Shown piece by piece: positions 9,982 through 44,412 of a stretch of 58,297 nucleotides of DNA (position 1 is its first letter; each line of letters begins with the position of its first letter). The stretch lies in assembly GCA_030831965.1 (NCBI GenBank), contig JAURJZ010000032.1, forward strand, positions 1 to 58,297. The letters are read 5' to 3'. Made by a program: the position numbers and the translations under genes. Source of the DNA: Verrucomicrobiota bacterium. GTDB taxonomy: Bacteria; Verrucomicrobiota; Verrucomicrobiia; Opitutales; UBA953. The notes below the pieces were generated by a model. The model was given only the letters and a program-made list of their open reading frames with translations, was not told where the DNA came from and made no database searches.

Positions 9982-10361
9982 CGACGCCGCGCGCCTGGGG
10001 CATCGCCTTCTTCCTCGCCACCGTCACCGTGGTGGTCTCCGGCGTGGTCTCCATCATGCAGGTCCGGCTTCGCGCCGAGCGGGTCGGCCAGGAGATCCGC
10101 GCGGTGGAGCGCGAGACCATCCGCCTGCGCAAGGAGGTCGACCACATCGCCCGCGACCGGGCCCGCGCCCAGGACGCCCTGCAGCTCACCCGCCATCCCG
10201 CCTGCGCCGACCTCCGCGCGCCCGAGCCCGACCAGGTCGCCTGGGTTCGCCCTCCCCTCGCCGCCTCGCCCCGCGCCGCCGGCCCCCTCAACCCGCGCCT
10301 CGCGGCGCTCGACATCGCCGGCCGCGAGCCGGCCGGGACCGGGGGCCCCGCCCGCCGATGA
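9978..10361 (+). CDS. ftsL: FtsL-like septum-site bitopic protein
   Basis: 127 residues. One transmembrane helix lies near the N-terminus (about 7-27, [21 protein letters not shown]), followed by a heptad-like charged helix (about 30-65, '[29 protein letters not shown]') that suits the FtsL coiled coil. The C-terminal half is Pro/Ala-rich. Sequence identity to FtsL is low, as usual for this family. The call rests on size, topology and position between rsmH and ftsI. In the divisome FtsL pairs with FtsB/DivIC and activates FtsW-FtsI. Both neighbours overlap by 4 bases. Confidence 0.75.
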
Positions 10362-12157
10362 GCCTGCCCCACGCCAGGCGCCCTCGGCTGCGAATCCTGG
10401 TGTGGTTGGTCTCCGCCGGGTTCGCCCTCCTCCTCGCCAAGCTCGTCCAGCTCCACGCCGTCGACGGCCCTCGTCTCCGCGCCAAGGCCCTCGAGGCCCG
10501 CAGCGAGCGCTCGGAGCGGCCCAGCCGCCGCGGCGAGATCCGCGACCGCCAGGGCAACCTGCTCGCCGCGACCGACACCGTCTGGGACATCGGCCTCGAC
10601 CCGCACGTCCTCGCGCCCGAGGACCGCGCCCGCGCCCCCGAGGTCGCGGCCCGGCTCGGCCTGCCCGCCTCGGTGGTGCTCGCCGCCTTCGCCGAGGAGC
10701 GCCGGACCCGGCTCGACGCGTCGGGTGCCGCCCGCGACGTCCGCTGGATCGTCCTCGCCAAGGAGGTCGACGAGGCCCGCAAGCGCGAGGTCGACGCGCT
10801 CGGCGTGCGCGGCCTCTACGGCCAGCCCCGCTTCCGCCGGGCCTACCCGCAGGGCTCCCTCGCCGCCCACGTCCTCGGCTACATCAACCACGAGGGCATC
10901 CCGGTCTCGGGCGTGGAGAAGACCTTCGACGACCTCCTCCGCGGTCAGGACGGCTGGGTCGAGTCCGAGCGCGACGGCCGCCGCCGCGAGATCGTCGCCC
11001 GACGCCTGCGGGATGTCCCCGCGGTCGACGGCCAGAGCCTCGAGCTGACCCTGGACTCGGTCATCCAGAGCGCCTGCGAGGAGGCGCTCGCCCAGGTCGT
11101 CCGCCAGCACCGGCCCAAGGGCGCCGTCGCCATCGTCAGCGAGCCCCGCACCGGCCGCCTGCTCGCCCTCGCCTGCTGGCCCACCTTCGACCTCAACCGG
11201 TTCAACGACCGGGAGGCCGCGCCCCTCGACGCCCAGCGCAACCGCGCCCTCGCCGACATCTACGAGCCTGGCTCCGTCTTCAAGGTCGTCTCCGTCGCCG
11301 GCGCGCTCGAGTCCGGGCTCGTCACGCCCGACACGCCCCTCGACTGCTCGGCCGACACCGTCCCCTACCGCGGGCGGATGGTCGCCATGCCCGGCGACTC
11401 CCACCGCATGGGCGTCGAGCCCCTCCGCGCCGTCGTCTGGGAATCCTCCAACCGCGGCACCGTCCAGGTCGCCATGCGCTACGCCGAGCGACACGGGGAG
11501 GAGCGCTACGTCGAGCTCCTCCGCGGCTTCGGCTTCGGCGCCGAGACCGGCCTGCCCGTCGCCGGCGGCGAGGTGCGCGGCATCCTCCACGCCCCGTCGC
11601 GCTGGGACGGCCTCACCATCTCCCGGCTTCCCATGGGCCACAGCGTGAGCGTCACCCCGATGCAGATGCATCTCGCCATGGCGGCCATCGCCGCGGACGG
11701 CCTTCTCATGCGCCCGCTCGTCGTCGGCCGCGTCCTCAACCCCGACGGCTCCGTCGCCATCGAGTACGCCCCCCGACCCCGCGGGCGCGCCGTCTCCGCC
11801 GCCGCCGCCCGCCAGATGGCCGACCTTCTCCGCGGGGTCTGCACGCGCCAGGGCACCGCCGCCGCCGCGGAGATTCCCGGCTACGACGTCGCGGGCAAGA
11901 CCGGCACCACCCAGAAGCTCGTCAACGGGCGCTACTCCAGCGCCCACCACGTCGCGTCCTTCTCCGGCTTCCTCCCCGCGTCCGACCCCCGCCTCGCCAT
12001 CACCGTCGTCGTCGACGAGCCCACCGGGTCGGGCGTCGGCTACGGCGGCAAGGTCTCCGCCCCGGTCTTCCGGGAGATCGCCCAGCGAGCCATCCGCCGG
12101 CTGGAGATCCCTCCTGCCAACCCCGCCCCGCGCGGCCGACTCGTCGCCGAACGATGA
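10358..12157 (+). CDS. ftsI: Division-specific peptidoglycan transpeptidase (PBP3)
   Basis: Cross-links septal peptidoglycan; a class B penicillin-binding protein of 599 residues. One N-terminal membrane anchor (about 12-32), then the PBP dimerisation domain ('SRRGEIRDRQGNLLA', 'YPQGSLAAHVLGYIN..GVSGVEK-like'), then the transpeptidase domain. The catalytic motifs are intact: SVFK with Ser306/Lys309, SSN at 363-365 and KTG at 514-516. No C-terminal PASTA repeats are seen. It partners with FtsW, encoded later in the cluster. It overlaps ftsL and murE by 4 bases each. Confidence 0.95.
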   Translation: MSLPHARRPRLRILVWLVSAGFALLLAKLVQLHAVDGPRLRAKALEARSERSERPSRRGEIRDRQGNLLAATDTVWDIGLDPHVLAPEDRARAPEVAARLGLPASVVLAAFAEERRTRLDASGAARDVRWIVLAKEVDEARKREVDALGVRGLYGQPRFRRAYPQGSLAAHVLGYINHEGIPVSGVEKTFDDLLRGQDGWVESERDGRRREIVARRLRDVPAVDGQSLELTLDSVIQSACEEALAQVVRQHRPKGAVAIVSEPRTGRLLALACWPTFDLNRFNDREAAPLDAQRNRALADIYEPGSVFKVVSVAGALESGLVTPDTPLDCSADTVPYRGRMVAMPGDSHRMGVEPLRAVVWESSNRGTVQVAMRYAERHGEERYVELLRGFGFGAETGLPVAGGEVRGILHAPSRWDGLTISRLPMGHSVSVTPMQMHLAMAAIAADGLLMRPLVVGRVLNPDGSVAIEYAPRPRGRAVSAAAARQMADLLRGVCTRQGTAAAAEIPGYDVAGKTGTTQKLVNGRYSSAHHVASFSGFLPASDPRLAITVVVDEPTGSGVGYGGKVSAPVFREIAQRAIRRLEIPPANPAPRGRLVAER

Positions 12158-18144: not shown

Positions 18145-19371
18145 ATGCAGTTCAAGGTCGAGCAGGTTGGCGCGCCCACGGGGGTGGCGCGCGCCACCCT
18201 GCTCGTCCCCCTGCTCATCCTCCTGCTCGTCACCTTCGGGTTGATCGCGCTCTTCAGCGCGGGCTACTCGATGTCCCTTCGCGAGCCCACCGCGGCGGTC
18301 GCCCGCCAGCTCGCCTACACCCCCATCGCCCTGCTCCTCGGCTGGCTCGCCTGGCGCGTCGACCTCGACCGTCTCCGGGAGCTTCGCTGGCCTCTCTTCG
18401 GCCTCGTCCTCCTCCTGCTCCTCCTCGCCCGCATGCCCGGCATCGGCCGCATGGTCAACGGTTCCTGGCGCTGGATCGACTTCGGCCTCTTCCGGCTTCA
18501 GCCCTCCGACCTCGCCAAGGTGGTCCTGGTCATCCTCGTCGCCGACCACATCGCCCGCTGGCAGCGCCGCTCGTTGCCCATCCGCGAGCCCTTCGTCACC
18601 CTTTCCGGGCGGCAGCCCTATCTCTTCACCCGCGGCCGTTGGGAGGACCTGCGCGACGGGTTCCTCCGCCCCATGCTGCCTGTCCTCGGCATCTGCGCGG
18701 GCATCGCCCTCGGCCCCGACCTCGGCACCATCGTGCTCTGCTGCTTCGTCGCCTTCGCCATGCTCTTCGTCGGCGGCGCCCGCCTGAGCTACCTCGGCGC
18801 CACCCTGGCCCTCGGCAGCGTCGCCTTCACCTACCTCATCCTCAACTGGGGCAGCCGTCTCCGTCGCTTCCTCTCCTTCCTCGATCCCGAGGGCCGCCAG
18901 GGCGACGAGTCCTACCAGCTCTTCCAGGGCATGCTCGCCTTCGCCGTCGGCGGCGTCACGGGCGCCGGGCCCGGCAACGGCCTGCAGCAGCGGGCCTACC
19001 TCCCCGAGGCCCACACCGACTTCGTCTTCACCATCATCGGGGAGGAATGGGGCCTCGTCGCCACCGTCGGCGTCGCGGGCATCTACCTCCTCGTCTTCCA
19101 CCTTGTCATGCGCGAGCTCCGGGCCTGCACCGACCTCTTCCGCCTCTCGCTCGCCCTCGGCTGCGTGCTCTTCCTCACCCTGCAGGCCCTCGTCAACATG
19201 TGCGTCGTGACCGGGCTTCTTCCCACCAAGGGCATCTCGCTGCCCTTCGTCAGCTACGGCGGCACCAACCTCGTCACCTCGGCCGTGCTCATCGGCCTGA
19301 TGCTCAACGCGCTCCGCGACGGCGGGCGCCCGGCGCTGCGGCCCGCCGTCGTGCCCGCCTCCGCGCCATGA
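18145..19371 (+). CDS. ftsW: Septal peptidoglycan glycosyltransferase FtsW
   Basis: SEDS-family polymerase that extends glycan strands from lipid II at the septum with FtsI. 408 residues, about ten membrane helices. Conserved blocks: 'GSWRWIDFGLFRLQPSDLAK', 'LGPDLGT', 'FLSFLDPEGRQGDESYQ', 'GAGPGNGLQQRAYLPEAHTDF' and 'GLLPTKGISLPFVSYGGTN'. The periplasmic loop holding the conserved Asp is the PEAHTDF/IGEEWG segment. It overlaps murG by 4 bases. Confidence 0.95.
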   Translation: MQFKVEQVGAPTGVARATLLVPLLILLLVTFGLIALFSAGYSMSLREPTAAVARQLAYTPIALLLGWLAWRVDLDRLRELRWPLFGLVLLLLLLARMPGIGRMVNGSWRWIDFGLFRLQPSDLAKVVLVILVADHIARWQRRSLPIREPFVTLSGRQPYLFTRGRWEDLRDGFLRPMLPVLGICAGIALGPDLGTIVLCCFVAFAMLFVGGARLSYLGATLALGSVAFTYLILNWGSRLRRFLSFLDPEGRQGDESYQLFQGMLAFAVGGVTGAGPGNGLQQRAYLPEAHTDFVFTIIGEEWGLVATVGVAGIYLLVFHLVMRELRACTDLFRLSLALGCVLFLTLQALVNMCVVTGLLPTKGISLPFVSYGGTNLVTSAVLIGLMLNALRDGGRPALRPAVVPASAP

Positions 19372-20459
19372 CCCGCGTCCTCCTTGTCTGCGGCGGCACG
19401 GGCGGCCACCTCGCCCCCGGCATCGCCCTCGCCGAGCAGCTCGCGGCCCGCGGCGCCGATTGCCTCCTCCTGGTCAGCGGCAAGGGGGTCGACACCCTCA
19501 TGGCCGCGCGCTACCCCGCCCTCGCCTTCCGCCGGGGCCACGGCCGCGGCTGGGGCCCCGGCCTCCGCGGCCGGCTCGCCTTCCTCCTCCTCGGGCTGGT
19601 CGCCCTGGCCGACAGCCTTTGGCTCCTCCTTCGGCGCCGCCCCGCGGCCGTGGTCTGCTTCGGCGGCTACCTCTCGCTCGCCCCCGCGCTCGTCGCCCGC
19701 CTGCTCCTCGTCCCCGTCCACCTGCACGAGGCCAACCGCGTCCCCGGCAAGGCCGTCCGCCTCCTCGCCCGGCTCGCCTCCACCGTTCACGTTCCCTCCG
19801 GCGTCTCGCTTCCCGCCGTGCCCGCCTCCCGCCTTCGCGCCGGCGGCTTCCCTCTCCGCGCGGAGATCGGCCCGCGTCCGCGCGACGCCGCCCGCGCCGC
19901 GCTTGGATTCCCCGCCGAGGGCCGGCTCCTCCTCGTCGTCGGCGGCAGCCAGGGCGCCTCGGCCCTGACGCGCTGGTCGGCCGAATCCCTCCCCGAGCTC
20001 GCCCGCCTCGGCGTCCATCTCCTCTGCCTCAGCGGCCCGGGCGGACGCTCGGGTGAGGAGCGCGCCGCCGGCTCGGTCGCCCGCTTCCTCCCCTTCTGCG
20101 ACCGGATGGCCGAGGCCTACGGCGCCGCCGACCTCGCGGTCAGCCGGGCCGGCGCCGGCACCCTGGCCGAGCTCGCCGCCTGCCGCCTTCCCGCCGTGCT
20201 TGTCCCGCTGCCCTCCGCGGCCGACGACCACCAGTCCGCCAACGCCCGCGCCGCCGCCGCCGAGGGCGCGGCCAAGGTCTGCCCCGAGGCCGAGATCGGC
20301 TCCCTCCTGCCGATTGTCTCCGGCTTGCTCGCCCATCCCGCCGAGCTCGCCTCGCTCCGCGAGGGGCAGGGCAGGGTCCACGCCGCCAACCGCTGGGGCG
20401 GCCTGCTCGAGGCCGTGCTCGCCGACCTTCCCGCGGCGCGAAAGGAGGCGGCCGCATGA
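19368..20459 (+). CDS. murG: Lipid II synthase MurG
   Basis: Transfers GlcNAc from UDP-GlcNAc to lipid I at the inner membrane face. 363 residues, GT28 fold: N-terminal 'CGGTGGHLAPGIALAEQL' glycine loop, 'VVCFGGYLSLAPALVARLL', 'HEANRVPGKAVRLLAR', linker 'VVGGSQGASALTRWSAESLP', and the UDP-GlcNAc site 'AYGAADLAVSRAGAGTLAELAACRLPAVLVPLPSAADDHQSANA'. Only short pieces are quoted, but the order is complete. It is coupled to ftsW and to murC-murB by 4-base overlaps. Confidence 0.95.
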   Translation: MTRVLLVCGGTGGHLAPGIALAEQLAARGADCLLLVSGKGVDTLMAARYPALAFRRGHGRGWGPGLRGRLAFLLLGLVALADSLWLLLRRRPAAVVCFGGYLSLAPALVARLLLVPVHLHEANRVPGKAVRLLARLASTVHVPSGVSLPAVPASRLRAGGFPLRAEIGPRPRDAARAALGFPAEGRLLLVVGGSQGASALTRWSAESLPELARLGVHLLCLSGPGGRSGEERAAGSVARFLPFCDRMAEAYGAADLAVSRAGAGTLAELAACRLPAVLVPLPSAADDHQSANARAAAAEGAAKVCPEAEIGSLLPIVSGLLAHPAELASLREGQGRVHAANRWGGLLEAVLADLPAARKEAAA

Positions 20460-22708
20460 GCCGCCATTGGATGCTCGGCGCCTGCGGCATGGGCGTGGGA
20501 CCCCTCGCGCTTTACCTTCGCGCGGCCGGCCACGAGGTGCGCGCGTGGGACGACGCCCCGCGCGGCCCGATGCTCGACCATCTGCGGAGCGCCGGCATCC
20601 CCCTCGACCCGGACCCCTGGGCCTCGGGCTGGTCGCCCGAGGTGGTCGGCCACTCCGCCGCCGTCGCCCCCGGCCATCCCCTCCGCGCCCTCGCCGCCTC
20701 GCGCGGCGCCGAGCTCGTGCGGCGCGGCGAGCTCCTCGCCCGCGCCGCCGCCGGCCGCCGGTTGGTCGCGGTCTGCGGCAGCCACGGCAAGACCACCACC
20801 TGCGGGATGGTCATCGCGGCGCTCGACGCCGCGGGCGCCGACTTCGGGCACGTCCTCGGCGGCCTCTTCCGCGACCCCGCCTCGCCGCCCGCCCGAGCCG
20901 CCCGCGCCTCCGACTGGCTGGTGGCGGAGGTCGACGAGAGCGACGGCACCATCGGGGCCTTCTCGCCCGAGGTCACCGTCGCCGTCAACCTCGACTGGGA
21001 TCATCCCGACTACTACCGCTCCGAGGCCGACCTCGAGCGCGTCTTCGCCGACCTTTTCCGCCGGACCTCCTCGCTCATCCTCATCCCCGCCGACAGCGCC
21101 CGGCTGCGCCGGCTCGCCGAGGGTTGCTCCGCCCGCGTGCTCACCGTGGGGCCTGGCGGCGACCTCGCCCTCGACGCCGCGTCCGCCGGTCCCGGCCGCT
21201 CGCGCGCGACGCTCTCCGGCCTTTGGCCCCGCGCCAGCCTCGAGCTGCCCGTCGAGGGCGCCTTCAACCGCGCCAACGCCGGGCTCGCCCTGGCCGTCGC
21301 CTGGCATGTCGCCGGTCGCCTGGGCGAGCGTCCCCTCGGCGACTGGGCCGGCATCCGCCGCCGGCAGGACACGCTGCTCGACCGGCCCGGCCTGCGCGTC
21401 GTCGCCGACTACGCCCACCACCCGACCGAGATCGCCGCCCTCCTCGGCCTCCTCCGCGAGACCGCCCCCGGCCGGCTCGCCGTCGTCTTCCAGCCCCATC
21501 GGCACACCCGCACCCGCCAGTACGCCGCCGCCTTCCGCGACGCCCTCGCGGTCGCCGACCGGATCCTGCTCCTTCCCGTCTACGCCGCCGGCGAGACCCC
21601 CGTCGAGGGCGGCGCCTCGTCCGACCTCCTTCCCGCCGCCGACCCCCGCTTCGAGCTCGTCCCCGACCGCGCCCGCCTCCCGTCCCTCCTCCGCCGCTTC
21701 CTCGCCGACGGCCCCGCCACCGTCGCCTTCGTCGGCGCGGGCGACGTCGACCGCGACGCGCTCGCCTTCGCCCGCGCCGAGGACGATCTCGCGGCGCGCC
21801 TCGGCGGCCGGCTCTCCCCCGCGTCCGTCCTCCGCCGCGCCGAGCCCCTCGCCCGCCGCGTCACCCTCGGGGTCGGCGGCCCCGCCGCCTGGTACGCCGA
21901 GCCGGCCACGGAATCCGACGCGACGGAGCTCCTCCGCGCCGCGCGCCGCGCCGGCCTTCCCGCCTTCGTCCTCGGCCGCGGCTCCAACCTGCTCGTGCCC
22001 GACGGCGGTTACGAGGGCCTCGTCATCCATCTCGCCGCGGACGCGTGGACGCGGGTCGAGCCCCTCGGCGACCTCCGCCTCCGTGTCGGCGGCGGCGCCC
22101 GCCTCAAGGAGGTCTGCGGGGTCGCCGCCCGCCTCGGCCTGGCCGGGCTGGAGTTCCTCGAGGGCATTCCCGGCACCGTCGGCGGCTCCCTGCGCATGAA
22201 CGCCGGCGCCATGGGCGCCTGGATCTTCGACCGCGTCGAGTCGGTCGACTGGCTCGATGCCGACGGCGCGCGGCGCTCCGCCCCGCGCGAGGCCTTCGAC
22301 GCCGGCTACCGCGACTGCCCGCAGCTCCATGGCGCCCTCGTCCTGTCCGCCGTCCTGCGCGCCGAGCGGACGGACCAACCCGAGGCCATCCGCGCCCGCA
22401 TGGCCGACCTCGCCGCCCGCCGCCGCGCCTCCCAGCCCCGCGAGCCCAGCGCCGGCTGCGTCTTCCGCAATCCTCCCGGCGCCAAGGCCGGCGCCCTCAT
22501 CGACGCCGCCGGGCTCAAGTCCCTCGCATCCGGGGACGCGCTCGTCTCGCCCGTCCACGCCAACTTCATCGTCAATCCCGGCGCCGCCTCGTCCGACGAC
22601 GTGCTCGCCCTCATGCGCCGGGTCCGGTCCCGTGTCCGCGAGGCCAGCGGCATCCAGCTCGAGCCCGAGATTCTCCTGCTCGGCAAGGAATGGGGGGAGG
22701 TGCTGTGA
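20456..22708 (+). CDS. murC-murB: Fused MurC-MurB: UDP-MurNAc:L-Ala ligase plus UDP-GlcNAc-enolpyruvate reductase
   Basis: 750 residues in one open frame. Residues 1 to ~450 are MurC: 'GACGMGVGPLAL' Rossmann start, ATP loop CGSHGKTTT at 107-115, 'EVDESDGTIGAFSPEVTVAVNLDWDH', 'DYAHHPTEI' and 'FQPHRHTRTRQY'. Residues ~460 to 750 are MurB: 'LGRGSNLLVPDGGY' FAD region, 'GIPGTVGGSLRMNAGAMG', then 'SAGCVFRNPPGAKAGALIDAAGLKS'. In MurB the residue before VF(R/K)NP is normally the proton-donating Ser; here it is Cys668. The last two cytosolic steps before peptide growth are thus on one chain. The order of reaction is MurB then MurC, the reverse of the fusion order. Ddl overlaps by 4 bases. Confidence 0.93.
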   Translation: MSRHWMLGACGMGVGPLALYLRAAGHEVRAWDDAPRGPMLDHLRSAGIPLDPDPWASGWSPEVVGHSAAVAPGHPLRALAASRGAELVRRGELLARAAAGRRLVAVCGSHGKTTTCGMVIAALDAAGADFGHVLGGLFRDPASPPARAARASDWLVAEVDESDGTIGAFSPEVTVAVNLDWDHPDYYRSEADLERVFADLFRRTSSLILIPADSARLRRLAEGCSARVLTVGPGGDLALDAASAGPGRSRATLSGLWPRASLELPVEGAFNRANAGLALAVAWHVAGRLGERPLGDWAGIRRRQDTLLDRPGLRVVADYAHHPTEIAALLGLLRETAPGRLAVVFQPHRHTRTRQYAAAFRDALAVADRILLLPVYAAGETPVEGGASSDLLPAADPRFELVPDRARLPSLLRRFLADGPATVAFVGAGDVDRDALAFARAEDDLAARLGGRLSPASVLRRAEPLARRVTLGVGGPAAWYAEPATESDATELLRAARRAGLPAFVLGRGSNLLVPDGGYEGLVIHLAADAWTRVEPLGDLRLRVGGGARLKEVCGVAARLGLAGLEFLEGIPGTVGGSLRMNAGAMGAWIFDRVESVDWLDADGARRSAPREAFDAGYRDCPQLHGALVLSAVLRAERTDQPEAIRARMADLAARRRASQPREPSAGCVFRNPPGAKAGALIDAAGLKSLASGDALVSPVHANFIVNPGAASSDDVLALMRRVRSRVREASGIQLEPEILLLGKEWGEVL

Positions 22709-23622
22709 GCCCCCGGCTTGTCATCCTCTGCGGCGGGCGCTCCTCCGAGCGCGAGGTTTCCCTCGTCTCCGGCCGATGCGCCGCCCGGGCCCTCCCCTCC
22801 GCCCGCCTCGCCGAGCTCGATGCCGACGAGCTTCCCTCCTGGCTCGATCCCCGCGCCCACGCCGTCCTTCCCCTCCTTCACGGCGGCTGGGGGGAGGGCG
22901 GCGGGCTCCAGGAGGCGCTTGAGCGGCGCGGCGTCGCCTATTCCGGCTCGGACGCCGCCGCCAGCCGCCTCTGCATGGACAAGGTCGCAACCAAGGCCCG
23001 GCTGCGCGTCGCCGGCCTCCCTGTCGCCGACGAGGTCGAGTTCCCCGGCGGCCGGCCCCCCGCCGCCCGCGACCTGGCGGCCCGCCTGGGCGAGCAGGTC
23101 TTTGTCAAGCCGGTCGACCAAGGGAGCAGCGTCGGCCTTCGCCGCGCCTCCGGAATCGGCGAGATCGCCGAGGCCTTGGCCTCGCTGCCCCCGGGCGGCC
23201 GCTGGATGGCCGAGCCCCTTCTCGTCGGACGGGAGCTCACGGTCGGGCTCCTCGGCGGCGAGGCCCTCGGCGTCGTCGAGATCCTCGCCCCCGGCGGTGT
23301 CTACGACTACGCGAGCAAGTACACCCCGGGCGGCTCCGAGCACATCGCCCCGGCCGACCTGCCCCCCGCCCTCGCCGCCGCCATCGGCCGCGCCGCCGAG
23401 GCCGCCTTCGCCGCCTGCGGCTGCCGCGACTTCGCCCGGGTCGACCTTGTGCTCTCGGCCGATGGCCGCTTCTCTATCCTGGAGATCAACACCTTGCCCG
23501 GGATGACCGAGACCAGCCTCCTGCCCGACAGCGCCCGCTGCCGGGGCATCGGCTACGCCCAGCTCGTGTCGCGGATGGCCGAGCCCGCCCTTCGCCGGGC
23601 GCAGGAAGGAGCGCGTCCGTGA
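22705..23622 (+). CDS. ddl: D-alanine--D-alanine ligase
   Basis: Joins two D-Ala with ATP to feed MurF. 305 residues from the GTG at 22705, which overlaps the murC-murB stop (GTGA). ATP-grasp fold: 'CGGRSSEREVSLVSG' N-terminus, 'LPLLHGGWGEGGGLQEALERRGVAYSGSDAAASRLCMDK', 'VFVKPVDQGSSVGL', 'YDYASKYTPGGSEH', 'DFARVDLVLSADGRFSILEINTLPGMTETSLLPDSA'. In the dipeptide-ligase specificity loop it has YDYASKY, as in D-Ala-D-Ala rather than D-Ala-D-Lac ligases. The chain is short for the family, with a trimmed N-terminal domain. Confidence 0.94.
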   Translation: MSPRLVILCGGRSSEREVSLVSGRCAARALPSARLAELDADELPSWLDPRAHAVLPLLHGGWGEGGGLQEALERRGVAYSGSDAAASRLCMDKVATKARLRVAGLPVADEVEFPGGRPPAARDLAARLGEQVFVKPVDQGSSVGLRRASGIGEIAEALASLPPGGRWMAEPLLVGRELTVGLLGGEALGVVEILAPGGVYDYASKYTPGGSEHIAPADLPPALAAAIGRAAEAAFAACGCRDFARVDLVLSADGRFSILEINTLPGMTETSLLPDSARCRGIGYAQLVSRMAEPALRRAQEGARP

Positions 23623-24599
23623 TTCCCCCCATCGTCCGACGGATGCTCGGGCTGCGCACGCCCGACGCCTTCGCCCGCGCCGACGACCGCGACTGGCGCA
23701 AGCTGATCTCCCAGGATGTCCAGCGCGTCCCCGCGGGCGCGACCGGCCGACGGCGCGCCGCCCGCTCCTGGTTCAACGCCGCGCTCATCGGGCTGCTGCT
23801 GGCCGGCATGGCCTGCCTCACCTGGTTCGCCCTCGACGAGGCGCCCGCCGGGCCCCGCGCCTCCGCGCTGCGCGTGCGGACCGACGGTTGGCTGCCCGAG
23901 GACGCGGTCCGGGCCCTCGCCTTCCCCTCCGGATCCTCCTCCGCGCGCGACGTCGCCGCCATCCGCCAGTCCCTCGAGGCCGATCCCCAGGTCCTCGGCG
24001 CCCGCGTCCGCCGCCTCGCCGACGGCGCCCTTGAGGTCGAGCTGCGCGAGCGCCTCGCGGTGGCGCGCCTCGAGCCGGTCGCCGCGCCCGGCGCCGTCCC
24101 CTCCATCCGCCTGCTCGGCGCCGACGGCGTCCCCTTCGCCGGCGCCGGCTATCCCGCCCAGGCCGTGCGCAACCTTCCCCTCGTCACCGACCTTCCCCCC
24201 GAATCCTCGGGCGGCGAGCGCCGCTCCGCCGGCCTCGAGCTCGCCGCCGCCTTCCTCGCCGCCGCCCGGGCCGGCCACGGGCAGCTCCACGCCGAGTGGC
24301 AGGCCGTCTCCCTCCGCGACTGCCTCGACGGCCGGACCGACATCCCCGGGGCCACCTTCCGGGTCATCGTCCGTCCCGCCTCGCAGCCCGCCGATCGTCC
24401 CGCGCTCGAGGAGATCGTCTTCTCCAACGCCGAGTGGAACCGCGAGCTTGCGGTCCTCGCCGGCCTCCGCGTGGACGAGCTTCTCCGCCGCCCCGGGATG
24501 ACCGCGCGCGGCTACGTGCTCAAGCTGCACGTCCGCAACCGCTCCCAGCCCGGCACCGTCACCATGGAACCCCGCCTCGTACCCGCCGCCTCCCGATGA
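23619..24599 (+). CDS. ftsQ: FtsQ/DivIB-like division protein
   Basis: 326 residues from a GTG that overlaps ddl by 4 bases. A cytoplasmic tail of ~50 residues, one transmembrane helix (about 52-71, FNAALIGLLLAGMACLTWFA), then a periplasmic part. The periplasmic part contains a POTRA-like stretch ('VAAIRQSLEADPQVLGARVRRLADGALEVELRERLAVARLE') and a beta domain with 'RLLGADGVPF'. The latter recalls the FtsQ 'liD..G..f' segment. FtsQ recruits the FtsL/FtsB pair to the septum. The position before ftsA-ftsZ supports the call; sequence similarity is modest. Confidence 0.85.
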   Translation: MIPPIVRRMLGLRTPDAFARADDRDWRKLISQDVQRVPAGATGRRRAARSWFNAALIGLLLAGMACLTWFALDEAPAGPRASALRVRTDGWLPEDAVRALAFPSGSSSARDVAAIRQSLEADPQVLGARVRRLADGALEVELRERLAVARLEPVAAPGAVPSIRLLGADGVPFAGAGYPAQAVRNLPLVTDLPPESSGGERRSAGLELAAAFLAAARAGHGQLHAEWQAVSLRDCLDGRTDIPGATFRVIVRPASQPADRPALEEIVFSNAEWNRELAVLAGLRVDELLRRPGMTARGYVLKLHVRNRSQPGTVTMEPRLVPAASR

Positions 24600-25834
24600 G
24601 CAAGCGCCGCACCGTCCCCCTCCCTCCCCGCATCGCCGCGGTCGACATCGGCACCGCCAAGACCGTGGTCCTCGTCGGCCAGGTCGTCGACCGGAGCGTC
24701 CGGCTCCTCGGCTTCGGCGAGCGCCGCACCGAGGGCGTGGTCAAGGGCGTCGTCGAGGACCTCGAGCGCCTGACCGAGTGCGTCCACGGGGCCGTCGCCG
24801 ACGCCGAGGCCAGCGCCGGTTTCACGCTCCGCAACGTCTACGCCTCCGTCAACGGGCCCCAGGTCGACGGCGAGCGCGTCAAGGGTATCCTCACCGTCCC
24901 GGGCCGCGACCGCCGCGTCACCGTGGCCGACTCCCTGGGGGCCGCCGCCTCCGCCCGGCGCATCGAGCCGCCGCCCGGCCGGATGACCCTTCTCTACATG
25001 GCGCAGCCCACGCTGCTCGACGGCCGCCAGGTCGCCAATCCCGTCGGCATGACCGGCGAGCGCCTCGAGACCAGCTTCTGGCGGGTCACCCACGAGGAGG
25101 GATCCCTCCGCCAGCGCATCGGCATGCTGAACGGCATGAGCCTCGAGATCAACGAGTTCCTCCTCGGCAGCCACGCCTCCGCCTGCGCGGTGGCCGGCGA
25201 GGGCGACAAGCGCACCGGCTGCCTCGTCCTCGACCTCGGGGCCGGCACCACCAGCTGGATCCTCCACTACCGCGGCCACATCCTCTGCGCCGGCTGCGTG
25301 CCCGTCGGCGGCGAGCATGTGACCAACGACCTCTGCTCGGCCCTGCGGGTCCGGCGCGACGTGGCCGAGGACATCAAGCTCAAGTTCGCCTCCGCCGTGC
25401 ACCATCCCGACGACGCCAACAAGACCATCGTCAAGGAGGGCCTCCCCGGCGGCGAGCTCCAGTTCAACCGCGCCACCATCAACCTCGTCGCGTCCGTCCG
25501 CGTGCGCGAGCTCCTCGAGCAGGTGCGCCAGGATGTCGCCGGCCGGCTCCGGCAGATCTTCGGGCGCGATGTCGACCTCACCCCCGCCTTCCTTCCCTCC
25601 GGGGTCATCCTCACCGGGGGCGCCTCCCAGCTCGCCGAGCTTCCCGTCGCCGCCGGCGAGGTCTTCGGCCTCCCCGCCCGGTGCGCCATCCCCGCCACCG
25701 AGGCCGCCCAGCTCCGCCGACCCGAGTACGCCTGCGTCCTCGGCCTCGTCGCGGCCGCCCTGGTCAACGAGGCGCCGCCCCGCCGCCGCCCGGCCGGCTT
25801 CTGGGACATCCTCCGCAACCTCTTCCGCAGCTGA
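24596..25834 (+). CDS. ftsA: Cell division protein FtsA
   Basis: Actin-like ATPase that tethers FtsZ polymers to the membrane. 412 residues. 'AAVDIGTAKTVVLVGQV' (phosphate 1), the 1C domain ('VYASVNGPQVDGERVKGI..VPGRDRRVT'), 'LVLDLGAGTTSWILHYRGHI' (phosphate 2), 'PVGGEHVTNDLCSALRV', 'GVILTGGASQL' (adenosine motif) and a C-terminal amphipathic helix 'FWDILRNLFRS' that fits the membrane-targeting sequence. The ATG overlaps ftsQ by 4 bases, and ftsZ starts 2 bases after the stop. It is otherwise standard, which makes the divergent FtsZ next door more notable. Confidence 0.95.
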   Translation: MSKRRTVPLPPRIAAVDIGTAKTVVLVGQVVDRSVRLLGFGERRTEGVVKGVVEDLERLTECVHGAVADAEASAGFTLRNVYASVNGPQVDGERVKGILTVPGRDRRVTVADSLGAAASARRIEPPPGRMTLLYMAQPTLLDGRQVANPVGMTGERLETSFWRVTHEEGSLRQRIGMLNGMSLEINEFLLGSHASACAVAGEGDKRTGCLVLDLGAGTTSWILHYRGHILCAGCVPVGGEHVTNDLCSALRVRRDVAEDIKLKFASAVHHPDDANKTIVKEGLPGGELQFNRATINLVASVRVRELLEQVRQDVAGRLRQIFGRDVDLTPAFLPSGVILTGGASQLAELPVAAGEVFGLPARCAIPATEAAQLRRPEYACVLGLVAAALVNEAPPRRRPAGFWDILRNLFRS

Positions 25835-25836
25835 GC

Positions 25837-26994
25837 ATGTCGCCCGCGGCCCCCATCCTCCTCGTCGGCGTCGGCGGCGCCGGCTCCTCCCTCGTCGGCC
25901 GCCTGGCGGGCTCCCTCCCCGGCACCGTGCGCTGCCTCGCCGTCGACGCCGACGCCGCCGCCCTCGCCGCCTCCGGCGTCGCCGACCAGGTCCAGCTCGG
26001 CCGCTCCTCCCTGCGCGGCCTGGGCGCGGGCGGCGAGACCCGGCTCGGGTCCGACGCCGCGGAGGCCGAGACCGCCGAGCTCCGCCGGCGCCTCGCCGGC
26101 GCTCCCGTCGTCGTGCTCGTCGCCGGCCTGGGCGGCGGCATCGGCGGCGGCGCCACCCCCGTCCTCGCAGCCCTCGCCGCCGAGGCCGGCGCCACCGTCC
26201 TCGCCCTCGCGACGCTGCCCTTCTCGCACGAGGGCGAGCGCCGGCTCGCCTCGGCCCGCGACGCCCTCGTCGCCCTCCACCGCGCCGCCCACGGCACCGT
26301 CGTCCTTCGCAACGACGCCCTCCTCCAGCTCGCCCCCGCCTCCGCGCCCGTCTCCGAGCTCTTTGCCGAGACCGGGCGCTGGATCTCCGCCGCGATCGAG
26401 GCCATCTCCGGGTTCTTCGCCGAGGGCGCCCTCCTTCCCCTCGACCCCGGCGCCCTTCGCTCCCTGCTGCCCGCCCCCGGCTCGCGCGCGGCCTTCTCCA
26501 CCGGACGCGCCGAGGGCGAGGGCGCCGTGCTCGCCGCCGCGCGCGCCGCCCTCGCCTCGCCCCTCCACCCCCACGGCCCCGAGGCCGGCCGCCACGAGCA
26601 TCTTCTCGTCCAGGTGGTGGGCGGCCCCGGCCTCACCACCGGCGACTGCCAGGCCGCCGTCGCCGCGCTCCGATCCGAGCTCGGCGGCGACCGCATCACC
26701 CTGCTCGGGGCCCGCATCGACGCGGCCGATCCCGCCTCCGCCCGGGTCTCCTTCCTCGCCGCCAGCCCCGCGCCCGTCGCCCCCGCCCCGGCTCCCGCCC
26801 CCTCGCCGTCGCCCCGCGGCCGCAAGGGCGCGCGCGCCGCCGCCCCCTCGCCCCAGCAGCTCTTCAGCTTCGCCCAGGAGGAGAACCTGCGCCGCGGCCT
26901 CTTCGGCACCAGCGCGCCCAATCTCTTCAACGGCGAGGATGTCGACGTGCCCACCTACCTCCGCAAGGGCATCCGGCTGCCTTCCGCGGACTGA
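25837..26994 (+). CDS. ftsZ: Divergent FtsZ with degraded GTPase motifs
   Basis: 385 residues; tubulin-like by position, length and framework. The T1 loop 'VGVGGAGSSL' (10-19) replaces GVGGGGGNAV. GLGAGGETRLG (61-71) matches the T3 region, GGGIGGG (99-105) replaces the GGGTGTG signature, and 'PFSHEGERR' (128-136) matches PFxFEGxxR. The T7 synergy loop normally reads NxDFADV; here it is PLDPGAL (201-207), keeping only the central Asp203 and losing the Asn and the final catalytic Asp. After a Pro/Ala linker (about 313-340) the C-terminal peptide 'EDVDVPTYLRKG' is intact, so FtsA binding should persist. Known FtsZ biology predicts poor GTP hydrolysis. No second ftsZ is in the window. Confidence 0.88.
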   Translation: MSPAAPILLVGVGGAGSSLVGRLAGSLPGTVRCLAVDADAAALAASGVADQVQLGRSSLRGLGAGGETRLGSDAAEAETAELRRRLAGAPVVVLVAGLGGGIGGGATPVLAALAAEAGATVLALATLPFSHEGERRLASARDALVALHRAAHGTVVLRNDALLQLAPASAPVSELFAETGRWISAAIEAISGFFAEGALLPLDPGALRSLLPAPGSRAAFSTGRAEGEGAVLAAARAALASPLHPHGPEAGRHEHLLVQVVGGPGLTTGDCQAAVAALRSELGGDRITLLGARIDAADPASARVSFLAASPAPVAPAPAPAPSPSPRGRKGARAAAPSPQQLFSFAQEENLRRGLFGTSAPNLFNGEDVDVPTYLRKGIRLPSAD

Positions 26995-30012: not shown

Positions 30013-30102
30013 GGAGAGGTGGCAGAGTGGTCGATTGCACCTGACTTGAAATCAGGCGAGCCCGCGAGGGTTCCGGGGGTTCGAATCCCTCCCTCTCCGC
30101 CA
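30013..30102 (+). tRNA. tRNA-Ser (UGA)
   Basis: Acceptor stem GGAGAGG (30013-30019) pairs with CCTCTCC (30092-30098); G discriminator at 30099 and an encoded CCA at 30100-30102. Anticodon stem CCTGA/TCAGG (30040-30044 and 30052-30056) encloses loop CTTGAAA with anticodon TGA at 30047-30049. A long variable arm (class II) and T-loop GTTCGAATC are present. It decodes UCA and by wobble UCG/UCU. Its last 19 bases plus 5 more are repeated 142 bases downstream (see repeat). Confidence 0.97.
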
Positions 30103-31654: not shown

Positions 31655-34651
31655 GTGTCTCGCCTTGCCGCCCTTGGTCTGACGATGGTCGCCGCGTGCG
31701 GCCTCGGCGACCCTGTCTCCTACAACCGGGATGTCCGGCCGATCCTCTCCGAGAACTGCTTTTCCTGCCATGGGTTCGACGAGCACGGGCGCAAGGCCAA
31801 GCTCCGGCTCGACCGCCGCGAGGACGCGGTCGCCCCGCGCGAGGACGGCCCGGCCATCGCCCCCGGCAAGCTGGCCGGCAGCCTCGCCTGGCAGCGCATC
31901 ATCTCCGACGACCCGGACGACCTCATGCCGCCGCCGGAGTCCCACCTTGCGCTCACCCCGGCGCAGAAGGACATCCTACGCCGCTGGATCGAGCAGGGCG
32001 CGCCCTACGAGCCCCACTGGGCCTTCGTGCCTCCCCGACTGCCCGCCGTGCCCCGCGGCGTCGCCCCCAACCCGGTCGACGCCTTCGTGCGCCACCGCCT
32101 GCGCGCGGAGGGCCTCTCCCCCTCGCCCGAGGCCGACCGCGCCACCCTCATCCGGCGGGTCAGCCTGGACCTGACCGGCCTCGCGCCGACCGCCGAGGAG
32201 GTCGAGGCCTTCGTGCGCGATCCCGACCCTGACGCCTATGTCCGCCTCGTCGACCGGCTCCTCGCCAGCCCCCACCACGGGGAGCGCCTCGCGCTCGAGT
32301 GGCTCGACGCCGCCCGCTACGCCGACACCAACGGCTACTCCATCGACGGCGGCCGCCACCTCTGGCTCTGGCGCGACTGGGTCATCCAGGCCTTCAACGA
32401 CAATCTTCCCTACGACCGCTTCCTGGTCGAGCAGCTCGCGGGCGACCTGCTGCCGGGCCGCACCGAGGCCCAGCTCGTCGCCACCGGCTTCCAGCGCAAC
32501 AACATGGTCACCCACGAGGGCGGGACCATTCCCGAGGAGAACCTCGCCAACTACAACGCCGACCGCGTCCGCACCCTCGGCGAGGCCGTGCTCGGTCTCA
32601 CCCTCGCCTGCGCCCAGTGCCACGACCACAAGTACGACCCCCTCAGCCAGCGCGACTACTTCCGCCTCTTCGCCTACTTCAACACGCTCGGCGACAAGGG
32701 CCTGGACGGCGACGGCGGCGCCAACGCCGGCCCGGTCGCCAAGCTCCGCACGCCCCTCCGCGCCGGCGACCCCGAGCGTGTCCGCGGCCGAATCGCCGTG
32801 CTCCGCGCCCTCCTCGCCACCCCCGACGAGGCCCTGCTCGCCGCCTGGGAGCGCGAGCAGCGCGCGCGCCTCGCCGAGCGCGCCCGCGGCATCCAGCTCC
32901 ATCCCGTCCCCCTGCAGCGCATCTCCACCCCCAACAGCGGCGGCGGCTTCTCCGTCGAGGGCAACCTCCTGCGCGGCCTCGGCGCCGCCGCCTACGACGT
33001 CCTGGGCCAGACCCCGCGCACCGATCGTCCCATCGCCGGCATCCGCCTCGTCTTCCCCGCCTCCAACTTCCTTCTCACCGCGGTCGACGCCACCGCCGAC
33101 CGCGTTCCCTCCGACCAGGTCAACCTCCATCGCCTGATGCGCTTCTCGCGCGTCACCGCCAGCTCCTGGCACCCCCGCCACCCCGCCGCCGATGTGCGCG
33201 CGTTCGACAAGCATCGCGGCTGGTCGCCCGCTCCCGAGGCGAAGGGCGAGGTGCACCTGACCCTCACCTTCGAGCGCCCGATCACCGCCGAAACCCACCC
33301 CTGGCTCACCACCCAGGTCTATTTCGCCTCCCGCGCGGCCCCGGAGGCCCGGCTCTACGTCTTCACCGGCGATGACGACGGCACCGACCTGCCTGACGAC
33401 ATCCTCGCCATCCTCGGCAAGCCCGCCGAGGCCCGCGGGCCGGCCGAGCGCGCCCGGCTGTGGGAGCATGTCGCCGCCCATGCCGACGCGCTTCGCGCCG
33501 CGCGCGTCGACCTCGCCAACGCCGAGGAGCGGCTCCGCGCCCTGACCGAGCCGCACCCGACCATGGTCATGGCCGTGTCCTCCCAGCCTCGCGAGACCTT
33601 CATCCTGGAGCGCGGCGACTACAGCCAGCCCAGGGAGAAGGTCGCCGCCGGCACGCCTTCCTTCCTCCCGCCCCTCCCCGAGGGGTCGACCGCCGACCGA
33701 CTCGGGCTGGCCCGCTGGGTGACGATGCCGGACAATCCCCTGACCGCGCGCGTCGCCGTCAACCGCGCGTGGAAGATGCTCTTCGGGACCGGCCTGGTCT
33801 CCACCCCGGCCGACTTCGGCCTGCAGGGAGCCTTGCCCTCGCATCCCGAGCTGCTCGATTGGCTGGCGGTCGATTTCGTCGACTCCGGCTGGGACCACCG
33901 CCGCCTGCTTCGGCTGCTCGTGCTTTCCCAGACCTACCGCCAGTCGAGCCGCGCGACCCCCGGCCTCCTCGAGCGCGACCCGTCCAACCGGCTGCTCGCC
34001 CGAGGGCCCCGTTTCCGGCTGCCGGCCGAGTTCATCCGCGACCACGCCCTCAAGGTTTCCGGCCTCCTCGTGCGCGACCTCGGCGGACCGAGCGTCAATC
34101 CCTACAGCCCCTTCGACCTCTGGCGCGAGGTCAGCCATTACGGGTCCACCCCGGCCACCGCCCAGACCTTCGTCCAGGACCACGGCGACAAGCTCTACCG
34201 CCGCAGCCTCTACACCTACTGGAAGCGCACCGCCCCTCCTCCCAACCTCGCCGCCTTCGACGCGCCCAACCGCGAGGTCTGCGCCGTGGACCGCCCCCAG
34301 ACCATCACGCCCCTCCAGGCGCTGGTGACCCTCAACGACACGCAGTTCGCCGAGGCGGCGCGCGCCCTCGGCGGCCGGGTCGCCGCCCGCCCGGGCGACG
34401 ACGCCTCCCGCGTCCGCTGGGCCGCCTTGGAAACCCTCGGCCGGCCTCCCACCGAGCGCGAGTCCGGCGTCCTCCTCTCCGCCCTCGCCCGCGAGCGCGC
34501 GCGTTACGCCGCCGACCCGGCCCGCGCCGCCGCCGCGCTTCGCGTCGGGGACTCCGCGGTCCGGGGCGAGATCCCCTCGGGCGAGCAGGCCGCCTGGATG
34601 CAGGTCGCCTCCCTCCTCCTCAACCTGAGCGAGACCATCACCCGCAACTGA
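31655..34651 (+). CDS. PVC secreted cytochrome protein (PSCyt1-DUF1549-DUF1553)
   Basis: 998 residues from a GTG. Lipoprotein-like signal 'LTMVAAC' (Cys15). A cytochrome c-like planctomycete domain follows with heme motif CFSCH at 35-39 and 'LMPPPESHLALTPAQKDILRRWIEQGAPYEPHWAF'. DUF1549 comes next ('NPVDAFVRHRLRAEGLSPSPEADRATLIRRVSLDLTGLAP', 'DAARYADTNGYSIDG') with a second CxxCH, CAQCH, at 319-323. DUF1553 is at the C-terminus ('RLGLARWVTMPDNPLTARVAVNRAWKMLFG', 'YRQSSRA', 'QALVTLNDTQFAEAARAL'). The reaction is unknown; a periplasmic redox role is inferred from heme attachment. It is almost always paired with DUF1501, which starts 1 base after the stop. Confidence 0.92.
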   Translation: MSRLAALGLTMVAACGLGDPVSYNRDVRPILSENCFSCHGFDEHGRKAKLRLDRREDAVAPREDGPAIAPGKLAGSLAWQRIISDDPDDLMPPPESHLALTPAQKDILRRWIEQGAPYEPHWAFVPPRLPAVPRGVAPNPVDAFVRHRLRAEGLSPSPEADRATLIRRVSLDLTGLAPTAEEVEAFVRDPDPDAYVRLVDRLLASPHHGERLALEWLDAARYADTNGYSIDGGRHLWLWRDWVIQAFNDNLPYDRFLVEQLAGDLLPGRTEAQLVATGFQRNNMVTHEGGTIPEENLANYNADRVRTLGEAVLGLTLACAQCHDHKYDPLSQRDYFRLFAYFNTLGDKGLDGDGGANAGPVAKLRTPLRAGDPERVRGRIAVLRALLATPDEALLAAWEREQRARLAERARGIQLHPVPLQRISTPNSGGGFSVEGNLLRGLGAAAYDVLGQTPRTDRPIAGIRLVFPASNFLLTAVDATADRVPSDQVNLHRLMRFSRVTASSWHPRHPAADVRAFDKHRGWSPAPEAKGEVHLTLTFERPITAETHPWLTTQVYFASRAAPEARLYVFTGDDDGTDLPDDILAILGKPAEARGPAERARLWEHVAAHADALRAARVDLANAEERLRALTEPHPTMVMAVSSQPRETFILERGDYSQPREKVAAGTPSFLPPLPEGSTADRLGLARWVTMPDNPLTARVAVNRAWKMLFGTGLVSTPADFGLQGALPSHPELLDWLAVDFVDSGWDHRRLLRLLVLSQTYRQSSRATPGLLERDPSNRLLARGPRFRLPAEFIRDHALKVSGLLVRDLGGPSVNPYSPFDLWREVSHYGSTPATAQTFVQDHGDKLYRRSLYTYWKRTAPPPNLAAFDAPNREVCAVDRPQTITPLQALVTLNDTQFAEAARALGGRVAARPGDDASRVRWAALETLGRPPTERESGVLLSALARERARYAADPARAAAALRVGDSAVRGEIPSGEQAAWMQVASLLLNLSETITRN

Positions 34652-44323: not shown

Positions 44324-44404
44324 GCTCAGGTGGTGGAATGGCAGACACGCATGCTTGAGGTGCATGTGCCGAAAGGCGTCAGGGTTCAAGTCCCTGCCTG
44401 AGCA
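44324..44404 (+). tRNA. tRNA-Leu (GAG)
   Basis: Acceptor GCTCAGG (44324-44330) pairs with CCTGAGC (44397-44403), discriminator A44404. Anticodon stem CATGC/GCATG (44350-44354 and 44362-44366), loop TTGAGGT, anticodon GAG at 44357-44359. The variable arm GTGCCGAAAGGCGT and T loop GTTCAAGTC are typical of Leu. No CCA is encoded (ACCCCC follows), unlike the tRNA-Ser in this window, so CCA must be added. A strong terminator follows 8 bases later. Confidence 0.96.
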
Positions 44405-44412
44405 CCCCCTTC

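Follow-up and report, generated by a model that had tools for sequence, protein, structure and literature searches.

How much GTP hydrolysis does FtsZ-driven division need, and which aspartate must supply it? This question is raised by a gene in a 58,297-nucleotide stretch of DNA (the window) from a freshwater member of the Verrucomicrobiota with a genome of 1.85 Mb (a draft of 96 contigs, 98.35% complete). The initial annotation described the gene as an ftsZ with a broken GTPase signature and T7 loop. Losses of this kind extend through most of the phylum, so the reaction rule derived from Escherichia coli and Staphylococcus may fail for a large bacterial branch.

The T7 loop of beta-tubulin retains an asparagine and an aspartate equivalent to E. 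coli D209, although it is non-catalytic. Beta-tubulin carries a lysine (K254) in the place of D212 and the neighbouring GTP stays unhydrolysed; E254 is the catalytic acid (PMC13394414). In Staphylococcus aureus FtsZ (SaFtsZ), D210 (E. coli D209) moves to place the water for attack, D213 does no more than shape the site, to which G72 also gives shape, and N208L, D210N and D213N each abolished assembly in vitro; the six interface residues D46, Q48, R143, N208, D210 and D213 were described as required for assembly or catalysis and as shared between species (PMC8936486). E. coli FtsZ D212A is cited as having about 7% of normal GTPase activity (PMC8142252), and D212G rescues an ftsZ null only when suppressors are present (PMC5405962). 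The divergence of FtsZ in Verrucomicrobiota is already on record (PMC1845146, PMC9871819, PMC12283558); Yee et al. noted that V. spinosum differs at eight positions that are conserved elsewhere (PMC1845146). In that species, which belongs to the same phylum, ftsZ is essential and targeted mutagenesis exists (PMC12283558). A literature search, with most subscription journals outside it, found no analysis or report of T7-acid loss in verrucomicrobial FtsZ, and no biochemical study of any member of this group of FtsZs.

A single, divergent FtsZ at the end of the dcw cluster

The window holds ftsI, murE, murF, mraY, ftsW, murG, a murC–murB fusion, ddl, a gene in the ftsQ position, ftsA and ftsZ (Table 1), a gene content that bears out the assignment of ftsZ to a dcw cluster. 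It is the last gene of the cluster and directly follows ftsA, its ATG lying 2 bases past the ftsA stop. The product matched PF00091 (Tubulin/FtsZ GTPase domain) at 98.6 bits against a cut-off of 33, whereas PF12327 (FtsZ_C) aligned over nearly full length at 24.9 bits (E = 2.5e-5), slightly below its cut-off of 27. The NCBIfam equivalog TIGR00065 scored 174.4 bits (E = 3.9e-51), below its cut-off of 295.2; homology is thus clear, but the sequence has diverged too far to be assigned to the curated equivalog. Identity to the core of E. coli FtsZ was 28%. An AlphaFold model showed the FtsZ fold (pLDDT of 90.7), and its top match in the PDB was 7ohk, S. aureus FtsZ–GDP–BeF3–Mg (E = 8e-33; TM score of 0.91 by target length). 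The open reading frame is clearly an FtsZ, and a very divergent one.

The source genome gave one PF00091 match, no match to the Tubulin_2 profile and no second match when searched with the FtsZ of a relative, which makes the second FtsZ that the initial annotation had considered very unlikely. All six genomes of the sister genus (94–99% complete, 8–80 contigs) likewise carried exactly one PF00091 match. The product is most likely the organism's single, functional FtsZ.

The neighbouring ftsA had been called normal, and its product does have an SHS2 domain and a C-terminal amphipathic helix (FWDILRNLFRS). Accelerated evolution unique to FtsZ was considered and rejected, as FtsA diverges similarly (54.7% identity to the sister genus, versus 49.0% for FtsZ). 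Near the C terminus of FtsZ we found EDVDVPTYLRKG; the FtsA-binding peptide, GEDVDVPTYLRKG, is conserved across Opitutales, and the claim of an intact tail therefore holds. This tail is 45–93% identical to those of the genus and sister genus, whereas the linker reaches only 23–40%.

Table 1 Features of the window
Feature	Coordinates	Strand	Details
ftsI (transpeptidase)	10358..12157	+	PF00905, PF03717
ftsW	18145..19371	+	PF01098
murC–murB fusion	20456..22708	+	
ftsQ	23619..24599	+	By position alone; no Pfam match
ftsA	24596..25834	+	412 aa; PF14450 and PF02491 matches
ftsZ	25837..26994	+	385 aa by translation; PF00091 match; predicted fold
T1 loop, GGAGSS	25873..25890	+	Residues 13–18; E. coli N24 to Ser
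T4 GTPase signature, GGGIGGG	26131..26151	+	Residues 99–105; E. coli T108 to Ile, T110 to Gly
T7 loop, PLDPGAL	26437..26457	+	Residues 201–207; N207 to Pro, D212 to Ala, D209 present
D203 codon (retained acid)	26443..26445	+	E. coli D209, S. aureus D210; invariant in 22 family FtsZs
FtsA-binding peptide	26932..26970	+	Residues 366–378 of FtsZ; C-terminal, conserved
tRNA-Ser(tga)	30013..30102	+	
tRNA-Leu(gag)	44324..44406	+	

The T7 loop retains one aspartate

The translation reads in T1, T4 and T7 letter for letter as first described. In E. coli numbering, N24S, N43D, T44A, T108I, T110G, D187R, N207P and D212A are changed, and D45, G71, E138, R142, N165, F182 and D209 are unchanged. The tubulin signature [SAG]GGTG[SAT]G is not matched in T4, and the canonical triad N207/D209/D212 reads P/D/A, so that two of the three T7 residues thought essential for GTP breakdown are missing. 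Relative to canonical FtsZ (E. coli, B. subtilis and S. aureus), the protein shares the fold, the dcw position beside ftsA, the C-terminal FtsA peptide, the T5 Glu and Arg, the T2 Asp, the guanine-binding Asn and Phe and the first T7 Asp; it differs in lacking the T4 Thr, the T7 Asn and the second T7 Asp, and the guanine-contacting T6 Asp is Arg. Three congeners with readable loops (G001, G003 and G004) carry the same P-L/M-D-P-G-A-L loop type with a GGGV[GS]GG signature, which rules out sequencing error as the cause. R142, E138, D45, N165 and F182 are present in all five FtsZs of the genus; the initial annotation had mentioned neither the retention of these residues nor the change of D187 to Arg.

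The GTPase site is therefore altered in the way first proposed, but it is not broken outright. D203 aligns without gaps opposite E. coli D209, and no shifted catalytic aspartate was found within the T7 loop in the genus. Across 22 FtsZs of the family, a set that takes in the heavily eroded genus g3, the 305 core columns include only 6 that never vary: G19, G67, G107, G111, P134 and D209. As aligned, D209 is thus the only invariant side chain with chemistry, the other five columns being glycine or proline. Retention and invariance of this residue argue that the loop has been reduced to one acid. In genus g3, R142, D187 and N207 are lost from all six FtsZs and D45 from five. Four g3 proteins (L026, L027, L024 and L028) are more eroded than the window FtsZ, with R142, D45, N207, D187 and also D212 changed and D209 present, and carry a lysine-rich C-terminal extension.

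The frame of ftsZ is open in every readable relative. Between close congeners dN/dS was 0.043 and 0.10, and for close relatives, those of the sister genus included, it ranged from 0.04 to 0.20; ftsZ is under purifying selection among close congeners. The window gene and that of G001 form a fast-evolving pair with a dN/dS of 0.41.

Loss of T7 residues across the phylum

The altered site is not peculiar to this gene. The alignment comprised 197 FtsZs drawn from the order, the class and the phylum, and the T7 loop was readable in 196 of them. Match rank partly decided which sequences were taken, so the proportions are no more than a guide, and there is uncertainty in the deep branches. The comparison outside the phylum rests on PMC8936486 and on aligned FtsZs of B. 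subtilis and Staphylococcus. The triad was complete in 27 of the 196 proteins. Within Opitutales, D212 was gone from 101 of 108 FtsZs (present in 7) and D209 was present in 98, the usual loop being N-x-D-F-[AS]-T-L-R. Of 54 FtsZs from elsewhere in the class, 21 had D209 and 43 had D212, and the loop was often x-G-F-D-D-L; Chthoniobacterales have mostly lost D209 and keep D212. Named records follow these types: strain IMCC26134, Candidatus Didemnitutus and Candidatus Synoicihabitans carry N-x-D-F-[AS]-T-L, Chthoniobacterales carry R-x-G-F-D-D-L and Pedosphaera carries N-V-D-F-N-D-L.

Within the Opitutales type, the window genus stands at the extreme, with N207P, D212A, T108 replaced by Ile or Val, and D187R, and with D209 present. 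Like the window protein, the FtsZ of IMCC26134 (CP011265) lacks the second T7 Asp, keeps the first as the single loop acid and has the tail D-V/L-D-V-P-T-Y-L-R; it retains the T7 Asn and a GGGTGSG signature, both of which the window genus has lost. FtsZs of Chthoniobacterales and other Verrucomicrobiota outside Opitutales also have an incomplete T7 acid pair, but in the Chthoniobacterales type (xGFDDL) D209 has become Gly, D212 is present and an extra Asp is often found at 211. Loss of D212 goes back a long way in Opitutales, and the window genus has N207P, the T4 change and D187R in addition. In family f2 of the order (L118, L114, L115 and L117) the T4 signatures are GGGIGGG, GGGVGGG and GGGMGGG, so the T4 change either arose more than once or is old.

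A FastTree phylogeny from which the T4 and T7 columns had been left out required about 18 changes for D209 and about 19 for D212, compared with only two for the order label. Raw counts suggested that losses of D209 and D212 exclude each other, but this was not significant on independent pairs and was rejected. An acid at 211 occurred in 12 of 51 FtsZs without D209 and in 1 of 145 with it; the cases are confined to class relatives in other orders and the association was not significant on independent pairs, and compensation from this position was likewise rejected. One Opitutales genome (G090) has two FtsZs with opposite T7 types, L107 (on C5) and L060 (on C16); the second shares 81% identity with L148, from a distant member of the class, which makes contamination likely.

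A probable slowly hydrolysing filament and its alternatives

We consider it most probable, at roughly 60%, that the window FtsZ is a functional, FtsA-bound protein in which D203 supports slow GTP hydrolysis. The protein would bind GTP and polymerise head to tail, with FtsA tying it to the membrane through the C-terminal peptide. The T7 loop would have shrunk from an asparagine and two aspartates to D203, which could extend across the GTP held by the adjacent subunit and act together with R136 (E. coli R142) and the T3-loop glycine of that subunit. Hydrolysis would persist at a low rate and filaments would be long-lived. The initial annotation had listed slow hydrolysis among its options, and the residual activity of E. 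coli D212A, the behaviour of beta-tubulin and the retention of D209 point the same way; GTP binding, polymerisation and slow turnover are the most likely properties of the protein. In the E. coli D212A and D212G mutants the residue was removed in the laboratory, whereas here its loss is the natural state. The SaFtsZ N208L, D210N and D213N results and that for D212G imply that losing two of these residues should harm a canonical background. Moreover, because beta-tubulin keeps the D209-equivalent Asp without catalysing, the invariance of D209 could be structural, and the fast-evolving window–G001 pair also counts against this reading.

Beta-tubulin also supplies the model for a different outcome, in which the filament is a GTP-locked scaffold resembling the tubulin intradimer interface, with scarcely any hydrolysis and with turnover left to other proteins or to subunit loss. 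The Opitutales loop N-x-D-F-x-T-L matches that of beta-tubulin, the first Asp present and the last acid absent; the window genus also lacks the Asn, and has lost T108 of T4 and the guanine contact D187 as well. Beta-tubulin alternates with catalytic alpha-tubulin, however, whereas in the window FtsZ every interface would be of the same, non-alternating kind, and the remaining catalytic set (D209, R142 and the T3 glycine) is present in the genus. We regard such a scaffold as improbable, and somewhat more so than the opposite possibility, that a remodelled interface, with other residues or a metal standing in for D212 and N207, hydrolyses GTP at the ordinary rate. The loss of D212 is old and clade-wide, ftsZ stays in the dcw cluster and some congeners show purifying selection, so the order evidently lives well with the loss; the acids at 211 in other orders indicate that the loop can be rebuilt. 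That signal failed on independent pairs, however, and 99 of the 109 loops in which D209 alone remains, as in Opitutales, have one acid between 207 and 213, so that most such loops gained no new acid. A remodelled site is therefore unlikely, although it deserves some weight.

It is much less plausible that ftsZ is decaying and that division is independent of it. The dN/dS of the window–G001 pair, the even greater loss of contacts in genus g3 and the several small-genome Opitutales families in which two profiles detected no FtsZ would fit decay; the open frames, the low dN/dS among close relatives, the conserved FtsA-binding tail and the essentiality of ftsZ in V. spinosum (PMC12283558) speak against it. 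A second, canonical tubulin-family protein that carries division is the least credible reading of all: a gap in the draft assembly could hide one, but none turned up in the genome searches and the sister genus has a single copy throughout.

A broader proposal is that most Verrucomicrobiota have undergone complementary loss of the two-aspartate site (the first acid remaining in Opitutales, with a loop like that of beta-tubulin at each filament interface, and the second in other orders) and that filaments of the most eroded lineages hardly hydrolyse GTP. We hold this as a speculative view with the odds well against it. If true, GTP-driven treadmilling would be unneeded for constriction in the most eroded lineages, the window genus among them. 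By itself the gene would be a curiosity; the finding that merits pursuit is that lineages of the phylum have lost different catalytic acids in a complementary pattern. Several of the six SaFtsZ interface residues are lost order-wide, and other combinations over most of the phylum. This also bears on the loss of FtsZ in the related Planctomycetota and Chlamydiota. Cultured strains such as IMCC26134, together with mutagenesis in V. spinosum, make the question directly testable.

Relatives without detected FtsZ and other features of the window

Neither PF00091 nor a profile built from 48 relatives found FtsZ in 13 Opitutales genomes of 0.8–1.0 Mb (89–95% complete; families f7 and f25–f28): G030, G048, G052, G057, G065, G066, G080, G082, G095, G097, G106, G107 and G116. 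Loss of FtsZ in these reduced Opitutales is possible. G080 retains a 398-aa FtsA (L294) with an amphipathic C terminus and no adjoining ftsZ. Both profiles also failed to find FtsZ in G059 and G101 of family f17 (2.3–2.7 Mb, 1–3 contigs), other members of which carry it; an FtsA-family match was absent from G101 as well. Downstream of ftsZ in the window, a large open reading frame on the forward strand (31655–34651) resembles by eye the cytochrome-linked DUF1549/DUF1553 proteins that are common in Planctomycetes and Verrucomicrobia.
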